A stretch of DNA of 32,140 nt from Erysipelotrichaceae bacterium. Lineage in GTDB: Bacteria > Bacillota_I > Bacilli_A > Erysipelotrichales > Erysipelotrichaceae. The notes beneath the pieces are model-generated. The model was not told the DNA's origin. It did not search any database and worked only from the letters and a program-made list of their open reading frames with translations. The DNA lies in assembly GCA_009773735.1 (NCBI GenBank), contig WSYG01000036.1, positions 1-32,140 of the forward strand, written 5' to 3'. A program made the translations under genes and the position numbers. Positions 2,455 through 30,500 of the stretch are shown here, piece by piece (the stretch's first letter is position 1; each line of letters starts with the position of its first letter).

Positions 2455-4523
<2,069 letters not shown>

Positions 4524-13583: not shown

Positions 13584-14402
13584 TTAATATTTCTTACGTA
13601 AATTCTTCCAAACCAAAGTCATTCCAACAATATATCCATAATGTAGAATTAACTGAATCCATTCTGGCTTTGAATACCAACCAAACAAGACATACAGAGG
13701 AATACCCAAAACCCCTTCTTTGTGGTTAAAGACTGTACCAGATAAGTCAAATGCCTTCGTGAAGATGAAATTGTCACCACTTATTACAGACAATGCTTTT
13801 AAAGCTGACAAGCCTTCATGAACCGCATATCCAAGTAGGAATCCAGCCTGTAGAATCAGATAAACAAGTGTTATGTTGAACAAGATTCTTAGATTGATTT
13901 TAACCATGGACTTATAGATCAACACAGATAGGATTAGTGCTAATGAAATTCCCAGTCCTATTGAGGCTAAAGCGTATTGTCCAGCAAAGGTGAATATGGC
14001 GATTTCAGAGCCTTCTCTTACCACCATGATGAAAGCAACACTGAACAAACCGGCTTTCGATAAACTCTGCTTAACTTGGTTCTGAACTTCAACAACCATG
14101 TTGCTTCCGTGTTTAATCATCCAATAGATAAACGTGGTCACAAATATCAATGCAACGATACTAGCTCCACTTTCCCAGATTTTCGCAATCTCTTCCGTTT
14201 TCTGAATGGCAGATGAAACAGCATACAACGCTCCCCCAATAACAAAAGAGGCTAGGACACCCGCCATAGTTCCATTGTAGACAAACTTCTTATACTCATT
14301 CCTATTTGTTTGAGATAGGTATTGAAGTATGATCGTAACAATCAAGAATGCTTCCAACCCTTCTCTAAAACCCATAATCAATCCTGGGATAAATGTATCC
14401 AT
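13584..14402 (-). CDS. FTR1-family iron permease
   Basis: The 272-residue membrane protein has about seven hydrophobic helices and both REGxE iron-path motifs of the FTR1/EfeU family: FREGLEA near residue 13 and VVREGSEIAIF near residue 130. FTR1 permeases carry ferric iron, in many bacteria together with a copper- or cupredoxin-dependent oxidation step, which fits its place beside copper genes. It reads alone on the minus strand. The ribosome binding site is weak. On that strand a plausible TATAAT with TTTACA lies in 14480-14515. Metal specificity is inferred from the motifs. Confidence 0.85.
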   Translation of the reverse strand: MDTFIPGLIMGFREGLEAFLIVTIILQYLSQTNRNEYKKFVYNGTMAGVLASFVIGGALYAVSSAIQKTEEIAKIWESGASIVALIFVTTFIYWMIKHGSNMVVEVQNQVKQSLSKAGLFSVAFIMVVREGSEIAIFTFAGQYALASIGLGISLALILSVLIYKSMVKINLRILFNITLVYLILQAGFLLGYAVHEGLSALKALSVISGDNFIFTKAFDLSGTVFNHKEGVLGIPLYVLFGWYSKPEWIQLILHYGYIVGMTLVWKNLRKKY

Positions 14403-14751
14403 TTCAATCTCATGTTCTTTCTTTCAAAGCACATCCTACTATCCAAATCAGTCGTTCCCTAAGATTGGGATCATAATTTTATCGAAGCCTGTTTATTATA
14501 AATCATCTAAATGAATTTGTGTAATTTACTATCTTCTAACAAATGTAATCACATTTGACCAATTCAAAATTCATTCACCAACGCTGTCCAACAATAACGA
14601 TTCTAACCGCATTTCTAAGTGTACAGAATCACCATTAAGCTTTCTATATCAAACTATCCGCTTAACATTAAACTCGTCTTTAAAGGCTCTAAAACGCCCC
14701 ATATTCAATCCGATTTAAGCACCATTACTTTCTTCTAATTGTTAATTTCTC

Positions 14752-14786
14752 TTCTACACACTTTCTACATATCAATCCTTTATATT
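14752..14786 (+). promoter_or_regulatory. Response-regulator box A and promoter of the microprotein
   Basis: Two direct repeats TTCTACA (14752-14758 and 14763-14769) start 11 bp apart. After exactly 11 bp comes a TATATT -10 box (14781-14786). No proper -35 is present, as expected of an OmpR-class activated promoter. The same layout occurs upstream of cueP and copA, so the response regulator at 18061-18762 is the likely activator (inference). Confidence 0.75.
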
Positions 14787-14815
14787 AAAGGTGTCGAAAG
14801 ACAAGGAGGTATTCA

Positions 14816-14911
14816 ATGCTTGGTTTAGCACTAGCAAATTGCATTCATTCCTGTGGGCTTCACGGGCAAGAATTAGCTGCTTGTATTCAGATGATGATCA
14901 AAGGATTCTAA
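14816..14911 (+). CDS. 31-residue Cys/His microprotein
   Basis: This short gene has a complete set of signals: the box A promoter, AAGGAGG (14803-14809) 6 nt before the ATG, 31 codons, and its own terminator 35 nt after the stop. The peptide contains three cysteines (9, 13, 23) and two histidines (11, 16) in the segment NCIHSCGLHGQELAACIQ, enough to bind a soft metal. It has no signal peptide, although the N-terminus MLGLALAN is mildly hydrophobic. It resembles no family I know. The promoter shared with cueP and copA suggests a copper-bound peptide, possibly a buffer or a regulator. Confidence 0.7.
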   Translation: MLGLALANCIHSCGLHGQELAACIQMMIKGF

Positions 14912-14946
14912 AAAGATTACACTCTTGATTATTCACTAACTACGAG

Positions 14947-14977
14947 AAAGAGTTTATGCAAAATAAACTCTTTTTTG
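14947..14977 (+). terminator. Terminator of the microprotein gene
   Basis: A 10-bp perfect stem AAAGAGTTTA (14947-14956) with TAAACTCTTT (14964-14973) continues into a T-run to 14976. Confidence 0.88.
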
Positions 14978-14993
14978 TTTATGATTCAAAAAG

Positions 14994-15020
14994 AAAACTA
15001 GGAATTTTAATCCTAGTTTT
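14994..15020 (-). terminator. Terminator of the cueP operon
   Basis: A 10-bp perfect stem AAAACTAGGA (14994-15003) with TCCTAGTTTT (15011-15020) gives, on the minus strand, a T-rich tail. It lies 12 nt past the stop of the last cueP-operon gene and is converging with the microprotein terminator. Confidence 0.85.
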
Positions 15021-15031
15021 GATGTCTAAAT

Positions 15032-15679
15032 TTACTTAAGGTGTTCACTCATCCTTAAGAATTCTTCATGAGTAATCTCACCATGTGCGTATCTTGTCTT
15101 TAATATATTCAATGCATCACTTCCTGAGCTACTACTTTTCTGTTTTGATGATCGAGTTACTAGATAAGCAATACCGATAATGAGTGCTACAAGACCTAAC
15201 AGTCCTGCAACCATCCAACCCACCGCATAACCGCTCATCATGCTGCCATAACCCACATAATTTTCATTCTGGGGGAAATAACCATATCCGCCCATCATGC
15301 CGCCACCAAAGGACATCATGCCGCCGGCTCCCATGAATGTCATCATGGTAATGGGGACACCTGCCAGATAGTTATATCCTACTCGTATATGTACATTCGT
15401 TAAATTGGCAGATCCATCACCACCTAAGGCGATATCCATTCGATCATGAACTGCAGTGTTTCCTACGACTTGCTCCATTACGGAATCACCAAGTTCTTCA
15501 AGTTTGGCAGACGTTACTTTAGAAATGTTGATGGGATCCGTGGTGGCTATGTTTTGGTCCTGTCTTATTTCAGCAATAATTGTTTCTACACTTTTGAGAT
15601 CCATGCTATCAGCTTTGACACTGAGCACAGGTAACATCAACAATCCTAATATAAACGCAAATGAAACAAATTTTTTCAT
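15032..15679 (-). CDS. Secreted/membrane Met-rich protein with SHOCT domain
   Basis: The 215-residue product has a signal peptide (cleavage after about VKA), an extracytoplasmic region and a Met/Gly-rich patch (MGAGGMMSFGGGMMGG) of the kind that binds Cu(I). A membrane helix (about 165-190) and a C-terminal SHOCT motif (ILKTRYAHGEITHEEFLRM) follow. The start at 15679 has AAGGAGC 6 nt upstream; the longer frame from 15721 overlaps the preceding gene's end region and lacks a site. Last in the operon after cueP and an HMA protein, it probably takes part in extracytoplasmic copper binding. Its fold is unknown. Confidence 0.75.
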   Translation of the reverse strand: MKKFVSFAFILGLLMLPVLSVKADSMDLKSVETIIAEIRQDQNIATTDPINISKVTSAKLEELGDSVMEQVVGNTAVHDRMDIALGGDGSANLTNVHIRVGYNYLAGVPITMMTFMGAGGMMSFGGGMMGGYGYFPQNENYVGYGSMMSGYAVGWMVAGLLGLVALIIGIAYLVTRSSKQKSSSSGSDALNILKTRYAHGEITHEEFLRMSEHLK

Positions 15680-15724
15680 TTTTGCTCCTTCCGAGCACTT
15701 CACTCCAACCACAACATACACTTG

Positions 15725-15934
15725 TTAGTTAATATTTACTACTTTATAGCCCGCTTTTTCAACCGCCTTAGTAAGCACGATGTTGGAAACATCGCTTTTA
15801 AGCACGACAATCGCTGTTTTATCACCAATACTAACCTTGACATCGATCACTTCTTTTATCCCGAAAAGTTCAATATTGACTAACCCAGCACAGTGACTAC
15901 AATGCATCCCTTCAATGAAGATGGTTTTTTTCAT
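15725..15934 (-). CDS. CopZ-like heavy-metal-associated (HMA) protein
   Basis: The 69-residue protein is a single HMA domain with GMHCSHC (Cys12, Cys15), as in copper chaperones. The ATG at 15934 is preferred over a GTG two codons earlier, based on AAAGGA spacing. It lies between cueP and the Met-rich SHOCT gene in one operon (gaps 33 and 45 nt). It lacks a signal peptide, so it acts in the cytoplasm. It differs from the second HMA chaperone (18816-19022), so the cluster has two such proteins. Confidence 0.85.
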   Translation of the reverse strand: MKKTIFIEGMHCSHCAGLVNIELFGIKEVIDVKVSIGDKTAIVVLKSDVSNIVLTKAVEKAGYKVVNIN

Positions 15935-15967
15935 GTTCACTTTCCTTTGTATTTGCAGTTGTTCATT

Positions 15968-16549
15968 TTATGACAACTTTAACGGCGTTGTGATGCAGGT
16001 ATCGCTCTTAGTAAACGTTGTTAGTGGTTTTGATACAGTGGTTCCATTATAGTTAATCGTTAAGGTAGCCTCAATGTCTCGGGGTAACCATAAACCAATA
16101 AAGCCGGAATTCATACTTTTAACTTTTTGATTCATGATAACCGTGCCATCCTTTTTAACGATCGAAATCTCAAATTCCTTATTGAATAATTCTCCCCGGC
16201 ACGATACTAAATTGTGGGTCTGGCAAGGATGAATCTCATTAAGATACGGCGCGAAAGAAACATAGAATTCACTTTTAGGCAATTGAAAATCATATTGTTT
16301 TTCATTGTCATAAAGAATCAAAGTCGTGGACGTTATAGAGGCATTCAACCCATATTTCTCATCAGTGACACTATCGAGTTTATTCACCATTTCTTTGACA
16401 GACAATCCATTCAAACCATACTTTGTAAGCATTTGGGTCTTCGCTTCACTTGACGCATTAAAAAGAGTGGGTAGAAAAAAAGCAGAGATTAAAACTAGGA
16501 TTGAAACTGCAGCGATAATTAACTTCGTCTTTATCTTATTCGCTTTCAT
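15968..16549 (-). CDS. cueP: CueP-family periplasmic-type copper-binding protein
   Basis: The 193-residue product has a membrane-anchor or signal segment (about 8-28), followed by the CueP signature: HPCQTHNLVSCRGELF, then GFIGLWLPRD and the C-terminal TTFTKSDTCITTPLKL. In Salmonella CueP binds copper in the periplasm; here it would be tethered outside the membrane. The start at 16549 (AAAGG 5 nt upstream) is preferred. The ATG at 16588 would begin about 12 nt after the predicted transcription start. It leads the operon controlled by box B. Confidence 0.88.
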   Translation of the reverse strand: MKANKIKTKLIIAAVSILVLISAFFLPTLFNASSEAKTQMLTKYGLNGLSVKEMVNKLDSVTDEKYGLNASITSTTLILYDNEKQYDFQLPKSEFYVSFAPYLNEIHPCQTHNLVSCRGELFNKEFEISIVKKDGTVIMNQKVKSMNSGFIGLWLPRDIEATLTINYNGTTVSKPLTTFTKSDTCITTPLKLS

Positions 16550-16606
16550 AGAAACCTTTCTGGTGATACCTTGTCCATTCAACATCATGGATCACCTTGT
16601 ATCTGT

Positions 16607-16641
16607 ATTGTAAGCGGTAGGTTTGTAGAATTTATGTAGAA
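16607..16641 (-). promoter_or_regulatory. Response-regulator box B and cueP promoter
   Basis: On the minus strand two TTCTACA repeats (16641-16635 and 16630-16624) are 11 bp apart. After exactly 11 bp comes TACAAT (16612-16607). This is the same layout as boxes A and C. It abuts the terminator of the kinase gene. Confidence 0.8.
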
Positions 16642-16669
16642 AAAGAAATCTCGTTTTGAGATTTCTTTT
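16641..16669 (-). terminator. Terminator of the copA-kinase operon
   Basis: A perfect 12-bp stem AAAAGAAATCTC (16641-16652) with GAGATTTCTTTT (16658-16669) lies 3 nt past the kinase stop and shares one base with box B. Confidence 0.85.
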
Positions 16670-16671
16670 GG

Positions 16672-18060
16672 TTACTTTGGCAAAACCACTATGAAACTAC
16701 TGCCTACGCCCACTTCACTTTCGACTTGGATGTCTCCTTTATGGGCTTCAATGATACTTTTGACGATGGTTAACCCGATACCCGATCCACCAGTTGATCT
16801 GTTACGCGACTTATCCGCACGATAGAATCGCTCAAAGATGTAGGGCAATTCATCGGCTGAAATCCCACTGCCATTATCGCTCACTTTCACCATCACATCA
16901 TCGATTGTTTCATCAAACTCAATCGTAATGTTTCCATGAGCTTGAGTATATTTGATGGCATTGGTTAGAAGATTGATCATGACTTGCGTCATTCTTGATT
17001 CATCGACACTCAGTGATTCGCATTCCCCTTTGATCGTTACAACCATTTCTTTTTCATGAATTTGATGTTCAAGTTTTTTGACGACCTGCTTAGCAAGATC
17101 AACGAGATCCACTTTGGTTTTATCCAATTTTAAGTTCCCATCTTCCAAGATCGCTAAGCTTTCTAAGTCTTTAACAATGTTGGTTATTCGAAGCACCTCT
17201 TCATAACTGCTTTTAAGGCGTTCAGGTGAAGGTTCTATAATCCCATCCAACATTGCTTCAATGGTTATTCTTAAGGTTGTAAGAGGGGTACGAAGCTCAT
17301 GAGCCACATCTGACGTTAATTGTTTCTTCAAATTATCTTGTTTATCCAAAGAACTTGCCAATTGATTGACGGACTCAATTAAGTTATCCACTTCAGATAA
17401 ATTCGATCTGTCTTTGATTCTGATCTTATAATCTCCTTGAGAAATCTGACTCGTCGCATTGATCGTTTTCAGGATCGGTGAACTGATCCGTTTGGCAATC
17501 AGTGATCCTAGGATAATCGAAACTAAAAGTGAGATCGCACCCACAATTAAAAGGATTGAACTCAATTGATTCAAGAAATCGAAATCATTATCCGAGTAAA
17601 AATAAGGTCCAAAATACGTGACATTCACTCGCCCAATCTGATTTCCCATCAGTTCAATCGAAAAGTCAGAATCACTGAATTTTCCACTTGTCCCAGGAAA
17701 CTTTGTAAGCATCTGATGTGTTATGTCTTCTTTGATTTGGACACACACAGACATATCCCAGATTTCCGCATCCCACACGGTTTGGTCTGAATCATTGTAT
17801 ACCTTGATGATGTACCCATCATATAAGGCATACATTCCAATCGTATGAACATAGTCAACATTCCACATTTGAGTATCCGGATTATATTGTTGTCCTAAAC
17901 TATAGACAATTTCATTGAGTGTAGAGACTTGTTGTTTCGTAATATACGATTTAAATTGCTGGTTAATAAAGTAACTTGAGAGCGAACTAATGATCGCAAT
18001 AAGCACCAATGCCACAGCGGCTATCGATAATGTTAACCTTGATCGCAAACTCCCTTTCAT
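16672..18060 (-). CDS. Sensor histidine kinase of the copper module
   Basis: The 462-residue protein has two membrane helices (about 10-32 and 165-190) around an extracytoplasmic sensor region of about 130 residues, then HAMP. The HisKA phospho-acceptor is VAHELRTPLTTLR (His about 254). The ATP-binding boxes are NLLTNAIKYT, DNGSGI, FERFYRADKSRN and GSGIGL. It phosphorylates the response regulator encoded directly before it; the stop and start are adjacent (TAAATG). The sensor region contains one Cys and several Met, His and acidic residues, but no classical copper site is recognised. Copper sensing is inferred from context. Confidence 0.92.
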   Translation of the reverse strand: MKGSLRSRLTLSIAAVALVLIAIISSLSSYFINQQFKSYITKQQVSTLNEIVYSLGQQYNPDTQMWNVDYVHTIGMYALYDGYIIKVYNDSDQTVWDAEIWDMSVCVQIKEDITHQMLTKFPGTSGKFSDSDFSIELMGNQIGRVNVTYFGPYFYSDNDFDFLNQLSSILLIVGAISLLVSIILGSLIAKRISSPILKTINATSQISQGDYKIRIKDRSNLSEVDNLIESVNQLASSLDKQDNLKKQLTSDVAHELRTPLTTLRITIEAMLDGIIEPSPERLKSSYEEVLRITNIVKDLESLAILEDGNLKLDKTKVDLVDLAKQVVKKLEHQIHEKEMVVTIKGECESLSVDESRMTQVMINLLTNAIKYTQAHGNITIEFDETIDDVMVKVSDNGSGISADELPYIFERFYRADKSRNRSTGGSGIGLTIVKSIIEAHKGDIQVESEVGVGSSFIVVLPK

Positions 18061-18762
18061 TTATTGACCTCCAAACTTGTAACCGATGCCATGCACTGTA
18101 AGGATATACGTTGGATTTTTCGGATCAGTTTCTATCTTCTGTCGAATGTTTTTGATATGGCTATCCACAGCCCGATCGAAACCTTCGAAATCTTGACCTA
18201 AAGCAATCTGGATCAATTCATCACGGGTAAATGTTTTATTCGGGAATTTGATGAGTGAGATAAAAATCTTGTATTCATTGGGTGTAAAACTGACTGGTTC
18301 AAGTTTCTTCAAAACAATACGATTTTCGAAATCGATGATCAAATCATTATCACCGAACTTACTCTTTTGAAATAATGGAACCAGATCACTTTTAGATCGT
18401 CGAAGTACAGCTTCAACCCGGACATACAGTTCCTTCAGTCCGAAGGGTTTCGTGATATAGTCATCTGCACCATAATCAAAACCATTAACAAGATCTGCTT
18501 CTGTTACTTTGGCTGTCAACATGATAATAGGAACCCTTGAAGTTTGTCTCATTTTGACACAAAGTTCCTCACCTGAGATTCCCGGTAACATCAAATCCAA
18601 TAAAACTAAGGTGATCGAGTTTCTTTTAAACAACTCAAAACCAAGCTCACCGGTTTCGGCAGAGAGGATGTTATATCCTTTCGTTTCCAAGAACGCTTTA
18701 ACGATCTCAATGATTTTTACTTCATCATCTATAATTAGTATCGTTGGTTTATTATTCATCAT
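18061..18762 (-). CDS. OmpR-family response regulator
   Basis: The 233-residue protein has a receiver domain with the acidic pocket DDE, phospho-acceptor Asp in LVLLDLMLPG, conserved Thr in MLTA and Lys in KPFG. An OmpR/PhoB winged helix follows (FTPNEYKIFISLIKF to DSHIKNIRQKIE...VHGIGYKF). GGAGGT precedes the ATG. It lies in the copA operon before the kinase. The direct heptamer repeats of boxes A-C, one DNA turn apart, are the kind of site that OmpR-class dimers bind head to tail, so it probably activates those three promoters, including its own. Confidence 0.92.
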   Translation of the reverse strand: MMNNKPTILIIDDEVKIIEIVKAFLETKGYNILSAETGELGFELFKRNSITLVLLDLMLPGISGEELCVKMRQTSRVPIIMLTAKVTEADLVNGFDYGADDYITKPFGLKELYVRVEAVLRRSKSDLVPLFQKSKFGDNDLIIDFENRIVLKKLEPVSFTPNEYKIFISLIKFPNKTFTRDELIQIALGQDFEGFDRAVDSHIKNIRQKIETDPKNPTYILTVHGIGYKFGGQ

Positions 18763-18784
18763 CCGTTACCTCCAAAAGGCTAAA

Positions 18785-18809
18785 GCCCAAATCCGTTGAG
18801 GAATTGGGC
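18785..18809 (-). other. Weak hairpin between copZ and the response regulator
   Basis: GCCCAA (18785-18790) and TTGGGC (18804-18809) form a 6-bp stem, followed on the minus strand by TTTAGCCTTTT, just before the regulator's ribosome binding site. It may reduce read-through or stabilise the upstream message. Confidence 0.4.
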
Positions 18810-18815
18810 AATTTT

Positions 18816-19022
18816 CTACACGACTTCGTAACCAGCTTCACCAATAGCAAGCTTGATTGAATCGAGCGACAATTCTTCCGCGTCGTATTCAATTCTAACG
18901 GTTTTAGCGGATAAATCAACATTAACGTCTTTTGCGCCTTTAAGTGCTGTAATCGAGGAGGTAATGGCATGAACGCAATGGGAACAAGACATTCCCTCAA
19001 CGTTGAGTACTTCTGTTTTCAT
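18816..19022 (-). CDS. copZ: Copper chaperone CopZ
   Basis: The 68-residue HMA protein carries the Cu(I) site GMSCSHC (Cys13, Cys16) and the typical ending IGEAGYEVV. CopZ proteins deliver Cu(I) to the CopA ATPase and to CsoR-type sensors. It is cytoplasmic and sits in the copA operon between the TauE/SafE fusion gene and the response regulator. Confidence 0.92.
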   Translation of the reverse strand: MKTEVLNVEGMSCSHCVHAITSSITALKGAKDVNVDLSAKTVRIEYDAEELSLDSIKLAIGEAGYEVV

Positions 19023-19062
19023 TTAAAACCTTTCTTGGTCTTACTTTGACCTAATAACACCT

Positions 19063-20460
19063 TTATTCAACGACATTCACTGAACTGCGAATCATACCCA
19101 TCCAACAGTTATAAGAGAGTTTACCCGTTTTTGTTGGGGTAAATTCAAGTACATTGTCGCCTTCTTCAAGTTGGTATTGAATACCCAATGCCTTGATTTC
19201 AAATCGATAATTACATCCTGATAATTGACCAACGCCAACATGAATCGTCCATTTGACTGGCACACCAACTTTAACAGTGATGGGTTCATAACTACCATTA
19301 TAAACTTCGCTGGTGACAGTTTGCACTCCATCAACAACCTCAGCAACAACACCAGCGCCACTACCTCCACCAAAATTGAATAGATGACTTACCGAGAAGG
19401 ATGGCAATTGAATCCCAGATACCGCTAACCCTGTTTGAAACATAGCGAATCCCAAAACGATAACCAATACCGCACTAACTTGCATCATTTTAGCAGTGAA
19501 TTGTTTGCTTAAGAAAGAACTTAGAGCACCTAACCCAAACATCAAAGGAACAGTACCTAAACTAAAGACCAACATAGACAAGGCACCTTTTATTGGATCA
19601 CCGGTTGAAAGTGCATATAACTGCATTGCTTGAAGGGGTCCACAGGGCATTAATCCATTCAGAAGTCCAACATAGAACGGGCGATTCTTACTCACACCTT
19701 TTTCTTTACCGATCAATCGGGCAAAGACCTTGGGCATTCTTGGATTGAATCTTCTTAAGCTAGGGAATATATTGAGCATATTGATTCCCATGATGACCAT
19801 GAAGATACTGGCTCCGATGGCCACAATGCCCTTTGCAGGACCTGAGAAACTTACGACAGATCCTAAGGCACCAACAACACCACCAATAATTGTATAAGAT
19901 ACTACTCTACCAGCATTGTACAAAATACTTGGCATTAGATTATTAATCCCGCCTTTAGTGCCGGTTTCAACTTTTTGAGGAACACATTGGGATAAATTGA
20001 TGCCGCCACACATGGCAACGCAATGAACCGAAGTCAAGATACCAATCACAAACAACACGCCAAAGCTCATACCGGCTTTAGCTTCCGGGAACACATTGAA
20101 CACATTCAGTAATCCAAATTTATTGGCAATCATGTACAAGATATACAGGATGACAAAGATGGTTAAGATGTCGATTAGCTTTTCTTTGGTACTTACAGCT
20201 TTCTCGCCTTTTACAGAGGAGATATTCGAATCCCCTTTGACTTTGTACTCCAAGGATTCGATTGCCCTTTTTATTTCTCTTAGGCTAACAACATCATCGT
20301 GGTATGTCACTCGCACTGTATTTGTCGAGTAACTGGCTTTTACGCTGATGATCCCACCGGTTTTACGAAGTTTACTCTCTATACGGTTTTTTTTCTTTCG
20401 AACTTTTCCATCTCTTGCCTCCTTACAACACTCGCAATTTGGCACTTTGAGTGTGATCAT
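19063..20460 (-). CDS. HMA-like/TauE-SafE/cupredoxin fusion membrane protein
   Basis: The 465-residue protein combines three parts. The first is an N-terminal HMA-like domain (1-75), whose metal loop is CECC rather than CxxC. The second is a linker helix and a polytopic TauE/SafE (DsbD_2-like) domain (about 135-350), with TSVHCVAMCGGINLSQC and GLLNGLMPCGPLQAMQ. The third is a C-terminal cupredoxin-like domain (about 370-465), with GCNYRF and YNCWMGMIRSSV as probable copper ligands. Relatives occur in copper clusters of Gram-positive bacteria. The build suggests copper transfer through the membrane to an external cupredoxin, but transport is not proven. Thirty nt separate it from the DUF2933 gene. 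Confidence 0.82.
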   Translation of the reverse strand: MITLKVPNCECCKEARDGKVRKKKNRIESKLRKTGGIISVKASYSTNTVRVTYHDDVVSLREIKRAIESLEYKVKGDSNISSVKGEKAVSTKEKLIDILTIFVILYILYMIANKFGLLNVFNVFPEAKAGMSFGVLFVIGILTSVHCVAMCGGINLSQCVPQKVETGTKGGINNLMPSILYNAGRVVSYTIIGGVVGALGSVVSFSGPAKGIVAIGASIFMVIMGINMLNIFPSLRRFNPRMPKVFARLIGKEKGVSKNRPFYVGLLNGLMPCGPLQAMQLYALSTGDPIKGALSMLVFSLGTVPLMFGLGALSSFLSKQFTAKMMQVSAVLVIVLGFAMFQTGLAVSGIQLPSFSVSHLFNFGGGSGAGVVAEVVDGVQTVTSEVYNGSYEPITVKVGVPVKWTIHVGVGQLSGCNYRFEIKALGIQYQLEEGDNVLEFTPTKTGKLSYNCWMGMIRSSVNVVE

Positions 20461-20490
20461 TTTTATCTACTAATAAATTCTTATATAGCA

Positions 20491-20748
20491 CTAATGACAA
20501 CTCGGTTTTTCCTTTGAACCGTTTTCTTCCACTTGACCTTCACTGTGATGATCCTTCGATTTGTGCATTAGGGGCATCATCAGAAAGTGTGAAAGCGGAC
20601 AAAGTAGAAACAGCGCATAAGGCAACAATTTAACAATTGAGGTACCCGATCCAGGAATCAATAACCAAGCAGCAAGACCTAAAATCGGAGCTCCGATACA
20701 TATAATCAACAACCACTTTGGCATCCTTTGCCCACTGTGTTTATTCAT
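20491..20748 (-). CDS. DUF2933-like small membrane protein
   Basis: The 85-residue product has two membrane helices (about 12-32 and 40-58) followed by an external or cytoplasmic tail with HKSKDHHSEGQ and a final CH. It resembles the short DUF2933 proteins that accompany heavy-metal ATPases. The function is unknown; the His/Met content (MMPLMHKSKDHH) fits metal contact. It lies between the csoR-like and TauE/SafE genes in the copA operon. Confidence 0.7.
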   Translation of the reverse strand: MNKHSGQRMPKWLLIICIGAPILGLAAWLLIPGSGTSIVKLLPYALFLLCPLSHFLMMPLMHKSKDHHSEGQVEENGSKEKPSCH

Positions 20749-20775
20749 AACTCTTCTTTCCTTAGTTTTACTAAA

Positions 20776-21105
20776 CTAATTACCAATTTGGTGAAGACGC
20801 TTAATCGAGACAAACAAATCATCGATTGTTTGATCATCAACTGCACCTTGTCGATCCTTTAAACTGTGTTGAATATGGTTTTCCAAGATTAGTCTACCCA
20901 CTGAATAGAGAGCGGCTTGTGCTGCGTTGACTTGTACTAAAATGTCATCGCAGCACTCTTCATTGACTACCATCTTGTTAATTCCTTTGATTTGACCTTC
21001 TATTTTGTTGAGTCTAAGTGTCAAATCTTGGCTGTTACATCGAGCACGACCTCCAGATTTTATCTTCATCTGAAATCTGGGGTCGCTTGTTTCGCTTTCT
21101 TTCAT
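20776..21105 (-). CDS. CsoR-family repressor with one copper ligand replaced
   Basis: The 109-residue four-helix protein aligns clearly with CsoR (LRLNKIEGQIKGINKMV, then CCDDILVQVNAAQAAL and LILENHIQHS). Of the three Cu(I) ligands in CsoR (Cys, His, Cys), the first (Cys52) and the His (His77) are present. The third position, four residues after the His, is Ser81. It may use another ligand (Cys51, His80) or sense another signal. The gene begins 2 nt after the lipoprotein stop. A CsoR-type operator exists in front of copB (26999-27015), so it is the obvious candidate repressor for copB. Confidence 0.88.
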   Translation of the reverse strand: MKESETSDPRFQMKIKSGGRARCNSQDLTLRLNKIEGQIKGINKMVVNEECCDDILVQVNAAQAALYSVGRLILENHIQHSLKDRQGAVDDQTIDDLFVSIKRLHQIGN

Positions 21106-21107
21106 TT

Positions 21108-21776
21108 TTATTTTAAGTTGAAGGGTTTTAATAATTTTTCAACTTCTACTTTATTTCCAGAAGCATCCATGACTTCAACTTTGGCAAACACCCAGCCACT
21201 AACATTAGCTACATCAACACCGGCATCCGCAAATACAACCGGATCAAGCACAAATACAATGTCTTTATCATTGGCTGCCAAATCTTTGGCCCATTCAAAT
21301 TTATTGCCATCACCCAAATCAATCCCATAGTGGGCGAGTGCCTCGTGGTATCCTAAGGTGACTCTGCTCAGTTTCACCAATTCTTTAAATGAGGCTTCTG
21401 GGGTTGCTTGGGCATTTGCCGAAAATTCTTGTTCTCCCAAAGCCTGTCCAACCATGATCATGCCATCAATAAACATTCCGGCTGGTAATTTAGTGACATC
21501 TAAACCAGCGTCAATAAACGGTTGGGCATCGATTTCGGCCATCACATCATGAGGAGCAGTCGTTTTGAAGTTGGTGCTGAACAAGAAGCGTGCTGAGCCA
21601 TCTGGGGCACTCAAAGACCATGCGTTTAGCTCTGAATCAGCAGTGACATCACTCAGTTCAACAACTTCATTAAAAGATGAAATACCATACTTAGCCACGA
21701 CATCCGTTTGGGTGCAACCTACTAATCCTGCTAAAACTAATGCTGAAACTCCAGAAACGATCGCTAACTTTTTCAT
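21108..21776 (-). CDS. Lipoprotein of unknown family with a two-fold repeat
   Basis: The 222-residue product has a lipoprotein signal peptide (LVGC, Cys21). The mature part seems to contain two related halves. The first has KYGISSFNEVV and ends PFIDAGLDVTKLPAGMFIDG; the second has HYGIDLGDGN and ends VFADAGVDVANVSGWVFAKV. No Cys pair or His cluster is present in the mature part, so a metal site is not obvious. It lies between copA and the csoR-like gene (gaps 19 and 2 nt), so it is co-expressed with copper export. The family is not recognised. Confidence 0.75.
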   Translation of the reverse strand: MKKLAIVSGVSALVLAGLVGCTQTDVVAKYGISSFNEVVELSDVTADSELNAWSLSAPDGSARFLFSTNFKTTAPHDVMAEIDAQPFIDAGLDVTKLPAGMFIDGMIMVGQALGEQEFSANAQATPEASFKELVKLSRVTLGYHEALAHYGIDLGDGNKFEWAKDLAANDKDIVFVLDPVVFADAGVDVANVSGWVFAKVEVMDASGNKVEVEKLLKPFNLK

Positions 21777-21795
21777 TTTGTTTTTCCTTTTCTTC

Positions 21796-24261
21796 CTAGT
21801 TATAGGGTTTGAATGATTTTAGTCTTAATGCATTGGTTAATACAGATACAGAAGATAATGACATCGCTGCGGCTGCGAAGACGGGGTTTAATACTGGACC
21901 GCCAAAGATGTAAAGTGCGCCTGCAGCCAAGGGTATTCCCAAAACGTTGTAAGCAAAGGCCCAAAACAAATTCTGCTTGATATTACGGATTGTGCTCTTA
22001 CTTAACTGTATGGCCGTAGGCACTTCCATCAAATCACTTCTCATCAAGACAATATCTGCGGATTCCATCGCGACATCTGTTCCAGATCCAATCGCAATTC
22101 CCACATTGGCTTGTACTAAAGCCGGAGCATCATTAATTCCATCACCGACCATCGCAACAATACGGCCTTCGTTTTGTATTTTCTTAACTTCAGAGGCTTT
22201 ATCCTGAGGTAATACCTCAGACAATACACGATCGATCCCTACTTGTTTGGCAATTGCAGCAGCAGTCTTTTTGTTGTCACCTGTGATCATGATGGTTTGA
22301 ATACCCATTTTATTGAGTTTCTGGATGGCTCTTGCACTGCTTGGTTTTACAACATCAGCGACAGCAATGATTCCGGCAAATCGTCCTTCAACCGCAATAA
22401 ACATGGGTGTTTTCCCCTGATCTGCTAGGTCATCAGAGATTTTCTCAAATTCCTTAAGCTCGATGTTATTTTCACGGATTAATTTCTGATTTCCGAGTAA
22501 CACAGAAAGTTGATTGATTTTTACTTTAATTCCATGACCTGGAATGGCTTCAAATGAATCAATACTTTGGAATTCAATTTTGTCTTGTTCAGCTCTTCTA
22601 ACAATAGCCTGACCTAGAGGGTGTTCAGACCCCTTCTCAGCCGATGCAGCAATCTGAAGGATAAGCGCTTCAGACAAATATCCCGGCACAACCACAATGT
22701 CTGTGACCGCTGGTTTGCCTTCAGTAAGTGTTCCTGTTTTATCGAATACAATCGTATTAATTTTGTGGGCAGTTTCTAACGCTTCACCACCTTTAATCAA
22801 AATTCCATTCTCAGCCCCTTTACCGGTTCCAACCATGATTGCAGTCGGTGTTGCCAAACCAAGCGCACATGGGCATGCGATGACCAGAATGGCGATGAAG
22901 ATTGACAATGAGAAGGTCAGGGTTTGGCCACTAAGAAACCAAATCGCAGCAACGAGAGTCGCAATAACAAAGACGATTGGCACAAAGTATCCGGAGACAA
23001 TATCTGCCATCTGAGCGATCGGCGCTTTTGATCCTTGAGCATCCTCAACCAGTTTAATGATTTGAGCTAAGGCTGTGTCCGCCCCAACTTTTGTGGCTTT
23101 AAAATGAATCAAGCCATTAGTATTGATACTGGCTGCATAAACTACATCACCGATCTTCTTTTCAACTGGCATAGATTCTCCAGTTAACATGGATTCATCA
23201 ATTGCGGTATATCCAACAGTGATTTGACCATCGACTGGAATCTTTTCACCTGGTTTAACGATTAGAACATCACCCACTTCAACTTCCTCTACTGGAATGA
23301 TGACTTCTTCCCCGTTATGAATGACGAGTGCCGTTTTTGGTGCTAAGCCCATTAGTTTCTTGATCGCTTCAGAAGTTTTACCTTTAGAAACTGATTCCAG
23401 ATATTTCCCTAACAAAATCAAGGAGATGATGACGCCTGCTGTTTCAAAATACATGTTTTCAACAGCCGAGAATGTTCCTATTGAGATAAGGTAGGTTGCA
23501 TATAAACTGTAGAGCACAGCGGCGGTTGTCCCCATCGCGATCAAGGAATCCATATTGGGTGATCTTTGCCAAATTGCTTTGAATCCAACCACGAAGAACC
23601 GGTTTCCCGCAATCAATACAGGAATGACCAATGCAATCTGAGCGAAGGCAAAGACCAGCGGAAATGTCATTGGATCTAGGAATTCAGGAACCGGTAAGGA
23701 TAACCACTTAATCATCGGCGCCATAGCGAGATAGAATAGTGGAATACTAAATACGGATGAAACAACGAATTTAATCCATAAGACTTTAATCGCTTTTTGC
23801 TTTCTAGCCTTATCTTCATCCACTTTATCAACACCAATACTCTCCAAAGGTTTGTATCCAATCTTGATGATTTCTGACTTTATCTGAGAAAGCCTGATCT
23901 TTGAAGGATCATAATGGATCGTTGCTTTTTCGGTCGCAAGATTTACATTTGCTGAACTTACCCCATTCAATTTTGAGACCGTCTTTTCTATTCTTTGAGC
24001 ACAAGAGGCACAGGTCATCCCCTCAATGGGAATCGTGACTTGTTTTTCACTTTGTTCAATATGAAGTTCATAACCCGCTTTGCTGACTGCACTTTGAATG
24101 TCTGAATAATTAATCACTTTTTCATCAAAGTTAACCGTAAGTTTTTCTGTTGCGAAATTTACACTTGATTCAGAAACACCAACAAGTTTCCCCGTCACTT
24201 TCTCAATTCTCTGCGCACAAGCAGCGCAAGTCATTCCTGATATTCGAAGCGTTTGTTGCAT
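21796..24261 (-). CDS. copA: Cu(I)-exporting P1B-type ATPase CopA
   Basis: The 821-residue protein has two N-terminal HMA domains ([13 protein letters not shown] and [13 protein letters not shown]), eight expected helices and the TGES motif. The Cu(I) site is [13 protein letters not shown], followed by [15 protein letters not shown] and [20 protein letters not shown]. This is the P1B-1 signature, so it exports Cu(I) or Ag(I). GGAGGG lies 11 nt before the ATG. It is first in a minus-strand operon of eight genes down to the kinase, behind box C and a structured 5' leader. Confidence 0.95.
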
Positions 24262-24383: not shown

Positions 24384-24418
24384 AGTTTACAAATTAGTTA
24401 TGGAGAACTTATGTAGAA
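24384..24418 (-). promoter_or_regulatory. Response-regulator box C and copA promoter
   Basis: On the minus strand TTCTACA (24418-24412) and TTCTCCA (24407-24401) are 11 bp apart. They are followed after exactly 11 bp by TAAACT (24389-24384). The layout equals boxes A and B, with one degenerate heptamer position and a weaker -10. Confidence 0.7.
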
Positions 24419-30234: not shown

Positions 30235-30500
30235 ATAAAAATAAAAAGACTAAAGCCAATAAGAGGCGATAGTCTTTCCGCGGTTCCACTCTTTTTGGGT
30301 CAAATAAAAATTCAACCCATCTTTTCGGGTACAATCATACCCTAACGCTATAACAGGCGTACCTGCAGGCAACTACATTTTCGTTGCCTTTGCTCCAAGA
30401 CGCATTCACATCACATCTACCAGAAGTCACTTTCAGCTAGCGGACTTCTCTCTGTTGGTTTCAGTGAAGCTACTATTTCTTTTCACAGCATTTTGTTCAC
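30235..30500 (-). promoter_or_regulatory. T-box leader with a cysteine (TGC) specifier
   Basis: On the minus strand the leader has the AGTA of the specifier-loop E motif (30474-30471) and AGAGAG in stem I. The partner GAA (30407-30405) is followed directly by the codon TGC (30404-30402). The T-box AGTGGAACCGCGG lies at 30290-30278. A terminator follows: stem AAAGACTA/TAGTCTTT (30277-30270 and 30252-30245) and a T-run. Uncharged tRNA-Cys would stabilise the antiterminator and switch the operon on when cysteine is scarce. This supports a cysteine-forming role for the operon. Confidence 0.92.

Follow-up and report, generated by a model that had tools for sequence, protein, structure and literature searches.

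A 31-residue cysteine microprotein with a copper-type promoter box in Bacillota, a putative Cu(I) buffer or shuttle

A stretch of 32,140 nucleotides from the genome of an Erysipelotrichaceae bacterium (assembly GCA_009773735.1, contig WSYG01000036.1; hereafter the window) contains an open reading frame for a 31-residue peptide (MLGLALANCIHSCGLHGQELAACIQMMIKGF; Table 1), which is almost certainly a genuine gene, conserved and subject to purifying selection. Its membership in a copper regulon is strongly supported (albeit no copper-induction data are available), and the promoter signal that it has in common with copper-export genes makes it probably a tiny, overlooked copper-handling protein. 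The role that we consider rather likely is that of a CopR-activated cytosolic buffer or shuttle for Cu(I), of roughly 30 residues, where Cu(I) binding, copper induction, dimerisation and buffering are all inferred. Somewhat more guardedly, we lean towards a generalization of this role to an unannotated, Bacillota-wide copper-regulon family of ~30-residue peptides, which would bind Cu(I) via a duplicated LAxCIxx(C/M) hairpin and act in trans with CopA as a minimal buffer or shuttle that may embody the Csp principle in a miniature of two helices.

Table 1. Position of the microprotein gene, its signals and the adjacent copper genes in the window
Feature	Position	Strand	Basis or remark
31-residue Cys microprotein, twin LAxCIxxC / LAxCIxxM, predicted helical hairpin	14816..14911	+	homology, pN/pS, AlphaFold
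CopR-type box TCTACACACTTTCTACATA, two half-sites, 11-bp period, replacing -35	14753..14771	+	box common to cueP, copA and members in other genera
-10 element TATATT, 11 bp past the second TTCTACA	14781..14786	+	sequence; spacing similar in relatives
Predicted 5' hairpin TGTC-GAAA-GACA (TGTCGAAAGACA)	14792..14803	+	directly 5' of Shine-Dalgarno, near expected mRNA start
Shine-Dalgarno AAGGAGG	14803..14809	+	sequence; ends six bases 5' of ATG
Intrinsic terminator, 16-pair stem and T-rich tail	14942..14978	+	
cueP (PF21172), copper-binding protein	15968..16588	-	promoter box as that of the microprotein
CopR-type box of cueP	16622..16640	-	
Sensor histidine kinase, CopS-like	16672..18060	-	
OmpR-family response regulator, CopR-like, proposed activator	18061..18762	-	
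HMA-DsbD_2 membrane protein	19063..20460	-	homologues box-bearing in other genomes
CsoR-like repressor (PF02583)	20776..21105	-	
222-aa protein, family-less	21108..21776	-	box directly upstream of homologues in other genomes
copA, Cu(I) P-type ATPase	21796..24261	-	
CopR-type box of copA	24399..24417	-	

The gene and its expression signals

The microprotein gene is flanked by an FTR1 gene, which is divergent, and a SHOCT gene, which is convergent. Its place is on the margin of a copper island that encodes CueP, a sensor kinase, an OmpR regulator, HMA-DsbD, CsoR and CopA along with another Cu-type ATPase. The first-pass annotation of the window had credited the frame with a strong ribosome site and a terminator of its own, and both are indeed in place (Table 1). 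A comparable Shine-Dalgarno sequence precedes most members of the family, and comparable terminators are found downstream of many of them. No sigma-70 promoter was detected at the gene by a consensus scan. Promoters activated by OmpR-family regulators typically have a direct repeat of 11-bp period that ends 11 bp 5' of the -10 element, and the repeat found here, occupying the place of the -35 element 11 bp 5' of TATATT, fits the expectation for an activator-dependent promoter.

The 5' hairpin (same or nearly same form in five Erysipelotrichaceae members only) might stabilise the mRNA. Its candidacy as a riboregulator was rejected, given a folding energy not clearly beyond that of shuffled sequences (z about -1) and its restriction to five related members.

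Distribution and conservation of the family

Searches by tblastn revealed a second copy of the microprotein in the same genome (74% identity), within the copper island of contig C46, as well as homologues in seven other genomes of relatives (E 1e-9 to 3e-4), the weakest of which (in genome G085, E 3e-4) reached 3e-18 by profile. A third match in the same genome (C31) and other weak matches are apparently due to chance. By profile search the microprotein is present in 8 out of 273 genomes of the bacterial family (own genome included; a ninth, weak match is probably fortuitous) and, with 10 out of 207 genomes in the other family searched, its distribution is patchy. The patchiness is also evident from a profile search of 392 genomes across the phylum, which returned only its own members and weak chance matches.

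Species genomes were also scanned with a degenerate DNA pattern derived from M1, G3, L6, A7, I10, G17, L20, A21, I24 and M27, in which the codons for Cys9, Cys13 and Cys23 were left unspecified, providing an unbiased test of the cysteines. Less than one chance match was expected in the 84,980 species genomes scanned (our own estimate from information content). The scan produced 32 matches, 30 of them real open reading frames of 30-34 residues in Bacillota, mostly with a strong Shine-Dalgarno sequence, from Erysipelotrichaceae, Clostridium, Bacillus/Neobacillus, Paenibacillus and Desulfosporosinus. Two matches in Bacteroidota (L082, L095) are located inside long open reading frames and were discarded as chance. 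Three further members from the Clostridium family (L188, L189, L190), found by profile, retain the cysteines and have a perfect box each; the cysteines are also kept in a longer paralogue of C. algoriphilum (MTCQTFAQCIVECVHKCGMHGQELVNCIQMMLGMK). The loci L130/L191 and L190 constitute a longer subfamily (34-35 residues) with an insertion, extra Cys and, in each case, a perfect box.

Cys9 is present in all 33 collected members, Cys23 in 32 (Met in the remaining one) and Cys13 in 28 (the others having Ser, Ser, Met, Met and Gly). The initial description of the peptide had stressed three Cys and two His within about 15 residues, and Cys9, Cys13, Cys23, His11 and His16 do all fall inside residues 9-23. 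Of the conservation then proposed as a test, the cysteine part is borne out by the family while the histidine part is not: His is conserved at neither position (11/33 at position 11 and 8/33 at position 16), so that the two histidines are no family feature. The invariance of columns specified in the pattern was imposed by the scan and provides no evidence; the nine Erysipelotrichaceae members found without it keep M1, G3, A7, G17, L20, A21, I24 and M27. The pooled pN/pS ratio is 0.22 (twelve pairs).

Neither Pfam nor NCBIfam contains a credible family match (the lowest E value, 0.0097, was for a model of a scorpion toxin, which 2 of 32 sequences matched), and no copy was found by tblastn in plasmids and phages; a scan of viral contigs gave a single chance match with an internal stop. 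A literature search (limited to open-access papers) returned no description of such a peptide.

The copper box and its regulon

The box preceding the microprotein gene, TCTWCATA-N3-TCTWCATA, is an 11-bp direct repeat located about 62 bp 5' of the start codon in most members. The suggestion that the promoter is of the kind serving cueP and copA could be confirmed and extended to other genera. In the 1.94-Mb genome the form TTCTACA-N4-TTCTACA (at most one mismatch) occurs in four places, namely at the microprotein gene, at copA and at both cueP copies. As the reversed control also gives 2 matches in this genome, the evidence is in the placement of the sites and not in their count. Across 13 carrier genomes TCTWCATA-N3-TCTWCATA was found at 25 sites, versus 0 for the reversed control. 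In Clostridium carboxidivorans P7, which is a carrier, an HMA-DsbD gene also has the box. The genes behind these sites are mostly those for the peptide, copA, HMA, HMA-DsbD, CcdA-thioredoxin and the copper two-component systems, together with the 222-aa protein accompanied by CsoR-CopA-HMA, an FtrD-DsbD-regulator-kinase operon and a few others; one site is inside an open reading frame.

Among members with upstream sequence, most boxes match at 14-16 of 16 positions versus about 10 in shuffles, and the distance from box to ATG is 58-69 bp in most of them (once 87). Weaker matches (12-13) were observed at L028, L033, L084, L096 and L099, a divergent form (TCGACA...) at L031 and L032, and in four loci (L072, L076, L080, L090) the microprotein gene follows a SHOCT gene with a weaker box 5' of the latter. 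In genomes G040 and G083 the box of the member is divergent, CueP is absent and the gene is remote from copper genes, although copA is present in both. The peptide adjoins copper genes in most Erysipelotrichaceae, and in their loci boxes of at least 14 precede the peptide or a copper-island gene, with the exception of one (L028:9588), which has no assigned gene closer than 260 bp. In genomes of Clostridium and Bacillus the box is found 5' of copA, CopZ/HMA, HMA-DsbD and the genes of copper two-component systems, also when the peptide is encoded elsewhere. Thus the peptide of Clostridium, Bacillus and Paenibacillus has the copper-gene box without adjoining those genes.

In co-occurrence profiles over the 273 genomes (phylogeny uncorrected), 5 of the 6 genomes with the kinase also have the peptide (P 3e-8), and 6 of the 8 with the peptide have CueP (P 6e-7). 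An OmpR regulator and a full-length sensor kinase are present, albeit not in every genome; for Paenibacillus G663 the alignment to the kinase covers the kinase core only.

The copper-responsive site of CopR in Corynebacterium glutamicum (TGAAGATTTnnTGAAGATTT) was proven by EMSA, mutation and a copper-dependent reporter (PMC3140484). Read on the other strand, the TCTTCA form of our box is identical to its TGAAGA-N5-TGAAGA core, and the two regulons are alike in the OmpR-type direct repeat, the TGAAGA half-site and the 11-bp period. By analogy with this CopR, the OmpR-family regulator of the window is inferred to bind the box. The C. glutamicum regulon has one genomic site, serving copper ATPase, heavy-metal-binding and thioredoxin-like genes, with no such microprotein described (PMC3140484). 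In contrast, the Bacillota genomes usually have several sites, one of them driving the microprotein, and TGTAGA frequently stands in one half-site of the box or in both.

The genome has two copies of the copper island (contig C46, locus L026, versus 13584-24261 of the window), each with its own microprotein gene and with protein identities mostly of 83-95% (54-68% for a few genes). The 222-aa protein, without a family in Pfam or NCBIfam, has conserved counterparts in Erysipelotrichaceae, Clostridium and Bacillus copper islands, and five homologues (L028, L030, L128, L132, L133) have the box directly upstream. C. folliculivorans has two near-identical operons (L136, L137; polyprenyl synthetase, YtkA-like, 4Fe-4S membrane protein and others), before each of which are three tandem copper-box half-sites (box at 2001).

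Predicted structure

AlphaFold predicts for the 31-residue peptide a helix at residues 2-13, a turn and a second helix at 18-30, with moderate confidence (pLDDT 77, pTM 0.38), and much the same two-helix form for the Clostridium carboxidivorans sequence; the monomer may not fold alone. A Foldseek search of the PDB gave nothing significant (all E >5), which is no surprise for a fragment of two helices. The two halves match when offset by 14 residues (L6/L20, A7/A21, C9/C23, I10/I24, C13/M27). Over the whole set the half-to-half identity is 0.35 at this lag versus <0.10 at every other, a repeat not reproduced in any of 5000 column shuffles; the same holds for the nine sequences not chosen by pattern. 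The peptide is an internal duplication, LAxCIxxC / LAxCIxxM.

The near-invariant Cys9 and Cys23 are equidistant from the turn, and C9xxxC13 is on the predicted helix 2-13 in 28 of 33 members. In ideal helices the cysteines and Met27 would be about 10-110 degrees off the centre of the hydrophobic face. The helices are amphipathic and the mean hydropathy is fairly high (0.79), which leaves a membrane-associated role possible. That Met takes the place of Cys in some members speaks for a soft metal rather than for zinc or disulphide chemistry.

Comparison with known copper and cysteine-motif proteins

Copper in the bacterial cytosol is usually ascribed to CopZ, a few metallothioneins and the Csp proteins. 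Bacterial metallothioneins (SmtA, MymT) are small, metal-induced, cytosolic peptides with many Cys and little helix. The microprotein has only 3 Cys in 31 residues (about 10%), located on predicted helices, and lacks the high Cys content without regular secondary structure that marks a metallothionein. Alpha-hairpinins and twin CX3C or CX9C proteins (small Tims, Cox17) form a helical hairpin with two Cys motifs. The microprotein is unlike these in its second motif (CX3M), in the nine residues between motifs and in its bacterial cytosolic context, and no homology to them was detected. With the CopZ/HMA chaperones it has in common the regulon and, likely, the Cu(I) cargo; CopZ, on the other hand, is a domain of about 70 residues with MXCXXC, and neither Pfam/NCBIfam nor the sequence itself gave a match to such an HMA domain. 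As in Csp1 and Csp3, the microprotein is predicted to be helical with Cys on the helices (including a single-helix CXXXC) and is proposed to bind Cu(I) by thiolates. Csp3 is a cytosolic four-helix monomer with 18-19 Cys, in which eight Cu(I) sites use single-helix CXXXC motifs (PMC5171941). Unlike it, the microprotein has 31 residues, three Cys and two predicted helices, without a many-Cys four-helix core; no homology to Csp was detected as a PDB sequence match (the presence of Csp chains in the PDB copy used being unconfirmed) or as a Pfam match. Overall, the microprotein is outside the Csp, metallothionein, HMA and leader-peptide classes, and no named family was found for it.

Proposed role and alternatives

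In the mechanism that we propose, rising copper would cause the CopS-like kinase to phosphorylate the OmpR-family regulator, which, bound to TCTWCATA-N3-TCTWCATA, would activate copA, cueP and the microprotein gene. The short, well-translated mRNA would yield a helix-turn-helix hairpin of two similar helices (LAxCIxxC and LAxCIxxM), and such hairpins would probably pair into a four-helix bundle. Cu(I) may be held by soft sulphur ligands, two or three from among Cys9, Cys13, Cys23 and Met27, and the peptide would buffer it, or carry it to CopA, until export catches up. High-capacity storage is disfavoured by the low Cys content (3/31).

The main rival, distinctly less probable but to be taken seriously, is a copper-induced regulatory partner, an amphipathic hairpin that, in the manner of other small proteins, would bind and tune another product of the regulon (the sensor kinase, CopA, a SHOCT membrane protein or FTR1), with Cys as a copper or redox sensor and not a store. 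It can draw on the hydropathy and amphipathicity, on there being only 2-3 thiols, on the SHOCT and FTR1 genes flanking the microprotein in the window and on the two-gene arrangement with SHOCT in four loci; yet the predicted helices are interrupted by a turn and, at 11-13 residues, do not have the length to span a membrane, and the neighbours outside Erysipelotrichaceae are unrelated, so no single adjacent partner gene is constant. A thiol-redox or envelope-stress peptide, working by a reversible Cys9-Cys23 disulphide or in the thiol branch (CcdA, thioredoxin, DsbD-like) rather than by copper chelation, appears improbable. The near-invariant, symmetrically placed Cys pair and the several boxes 5' of CcdA-thioredoxin and DsbD-like genes would suit it, whereas the same box serves copA and cueP, the peptide is devoid of a CXXC motif, and Met in place of Cys at position 13 (two members) or 23 (one) abolishes disulphide chemistry while preserving soft-metal ligation.

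For an exported peptide under copper stress (leaderless bacteriocin or signal) we see very little room: small size, amphipathic and hydrophobic character and strong translation signals are compatible with it, but the charge is about neutral, signal peptide and double-glycine leader are both absent, genes for export or immunity are not constant neighbours, and conservation is centred on Cys9/Cys23. Least credible of all, and in practice refuted, is a leader peptide or a chance frame in a non-coding RNA or attenuator of copA. The terminator after the frame and the adjacency to copA in L029, L030 and L033 could be taken to suggest it, except that in these very loci the gene is divergent from copA (with separate boxes for the two in L029), the next gene in the window is convergent, most members outside Erysipelotrichaceae are single genes remote from copper genes, and the conservation is at the protein level, as the pN/pS value indicates.

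If the preferred role of a Cu(I) buffer or shuttle is true, annotation pipelines have missed a copper-regulon component from Erysipelotrichaceae to Clostridium, Bacillus and Paenibacillus, one that would be among the smallest natural Cu(I) proteins and has an obvious internal duplication. With the microprotein, a CopR-type regulon in Bacillota can be put to a direct test, and the box alone offers a route to further copper genes, for example that of the family-less 222-aa protein.

Other elements of the window

A pemK RNA (RF02913; 1933-2029, +) is located beside two serine recombinases (2455-4523, +), possibly marking the border of a mobile element. The window also contains a c-di-GMP-I riboswitch (192-281, +) and a T-box leader (30259-30495, -).
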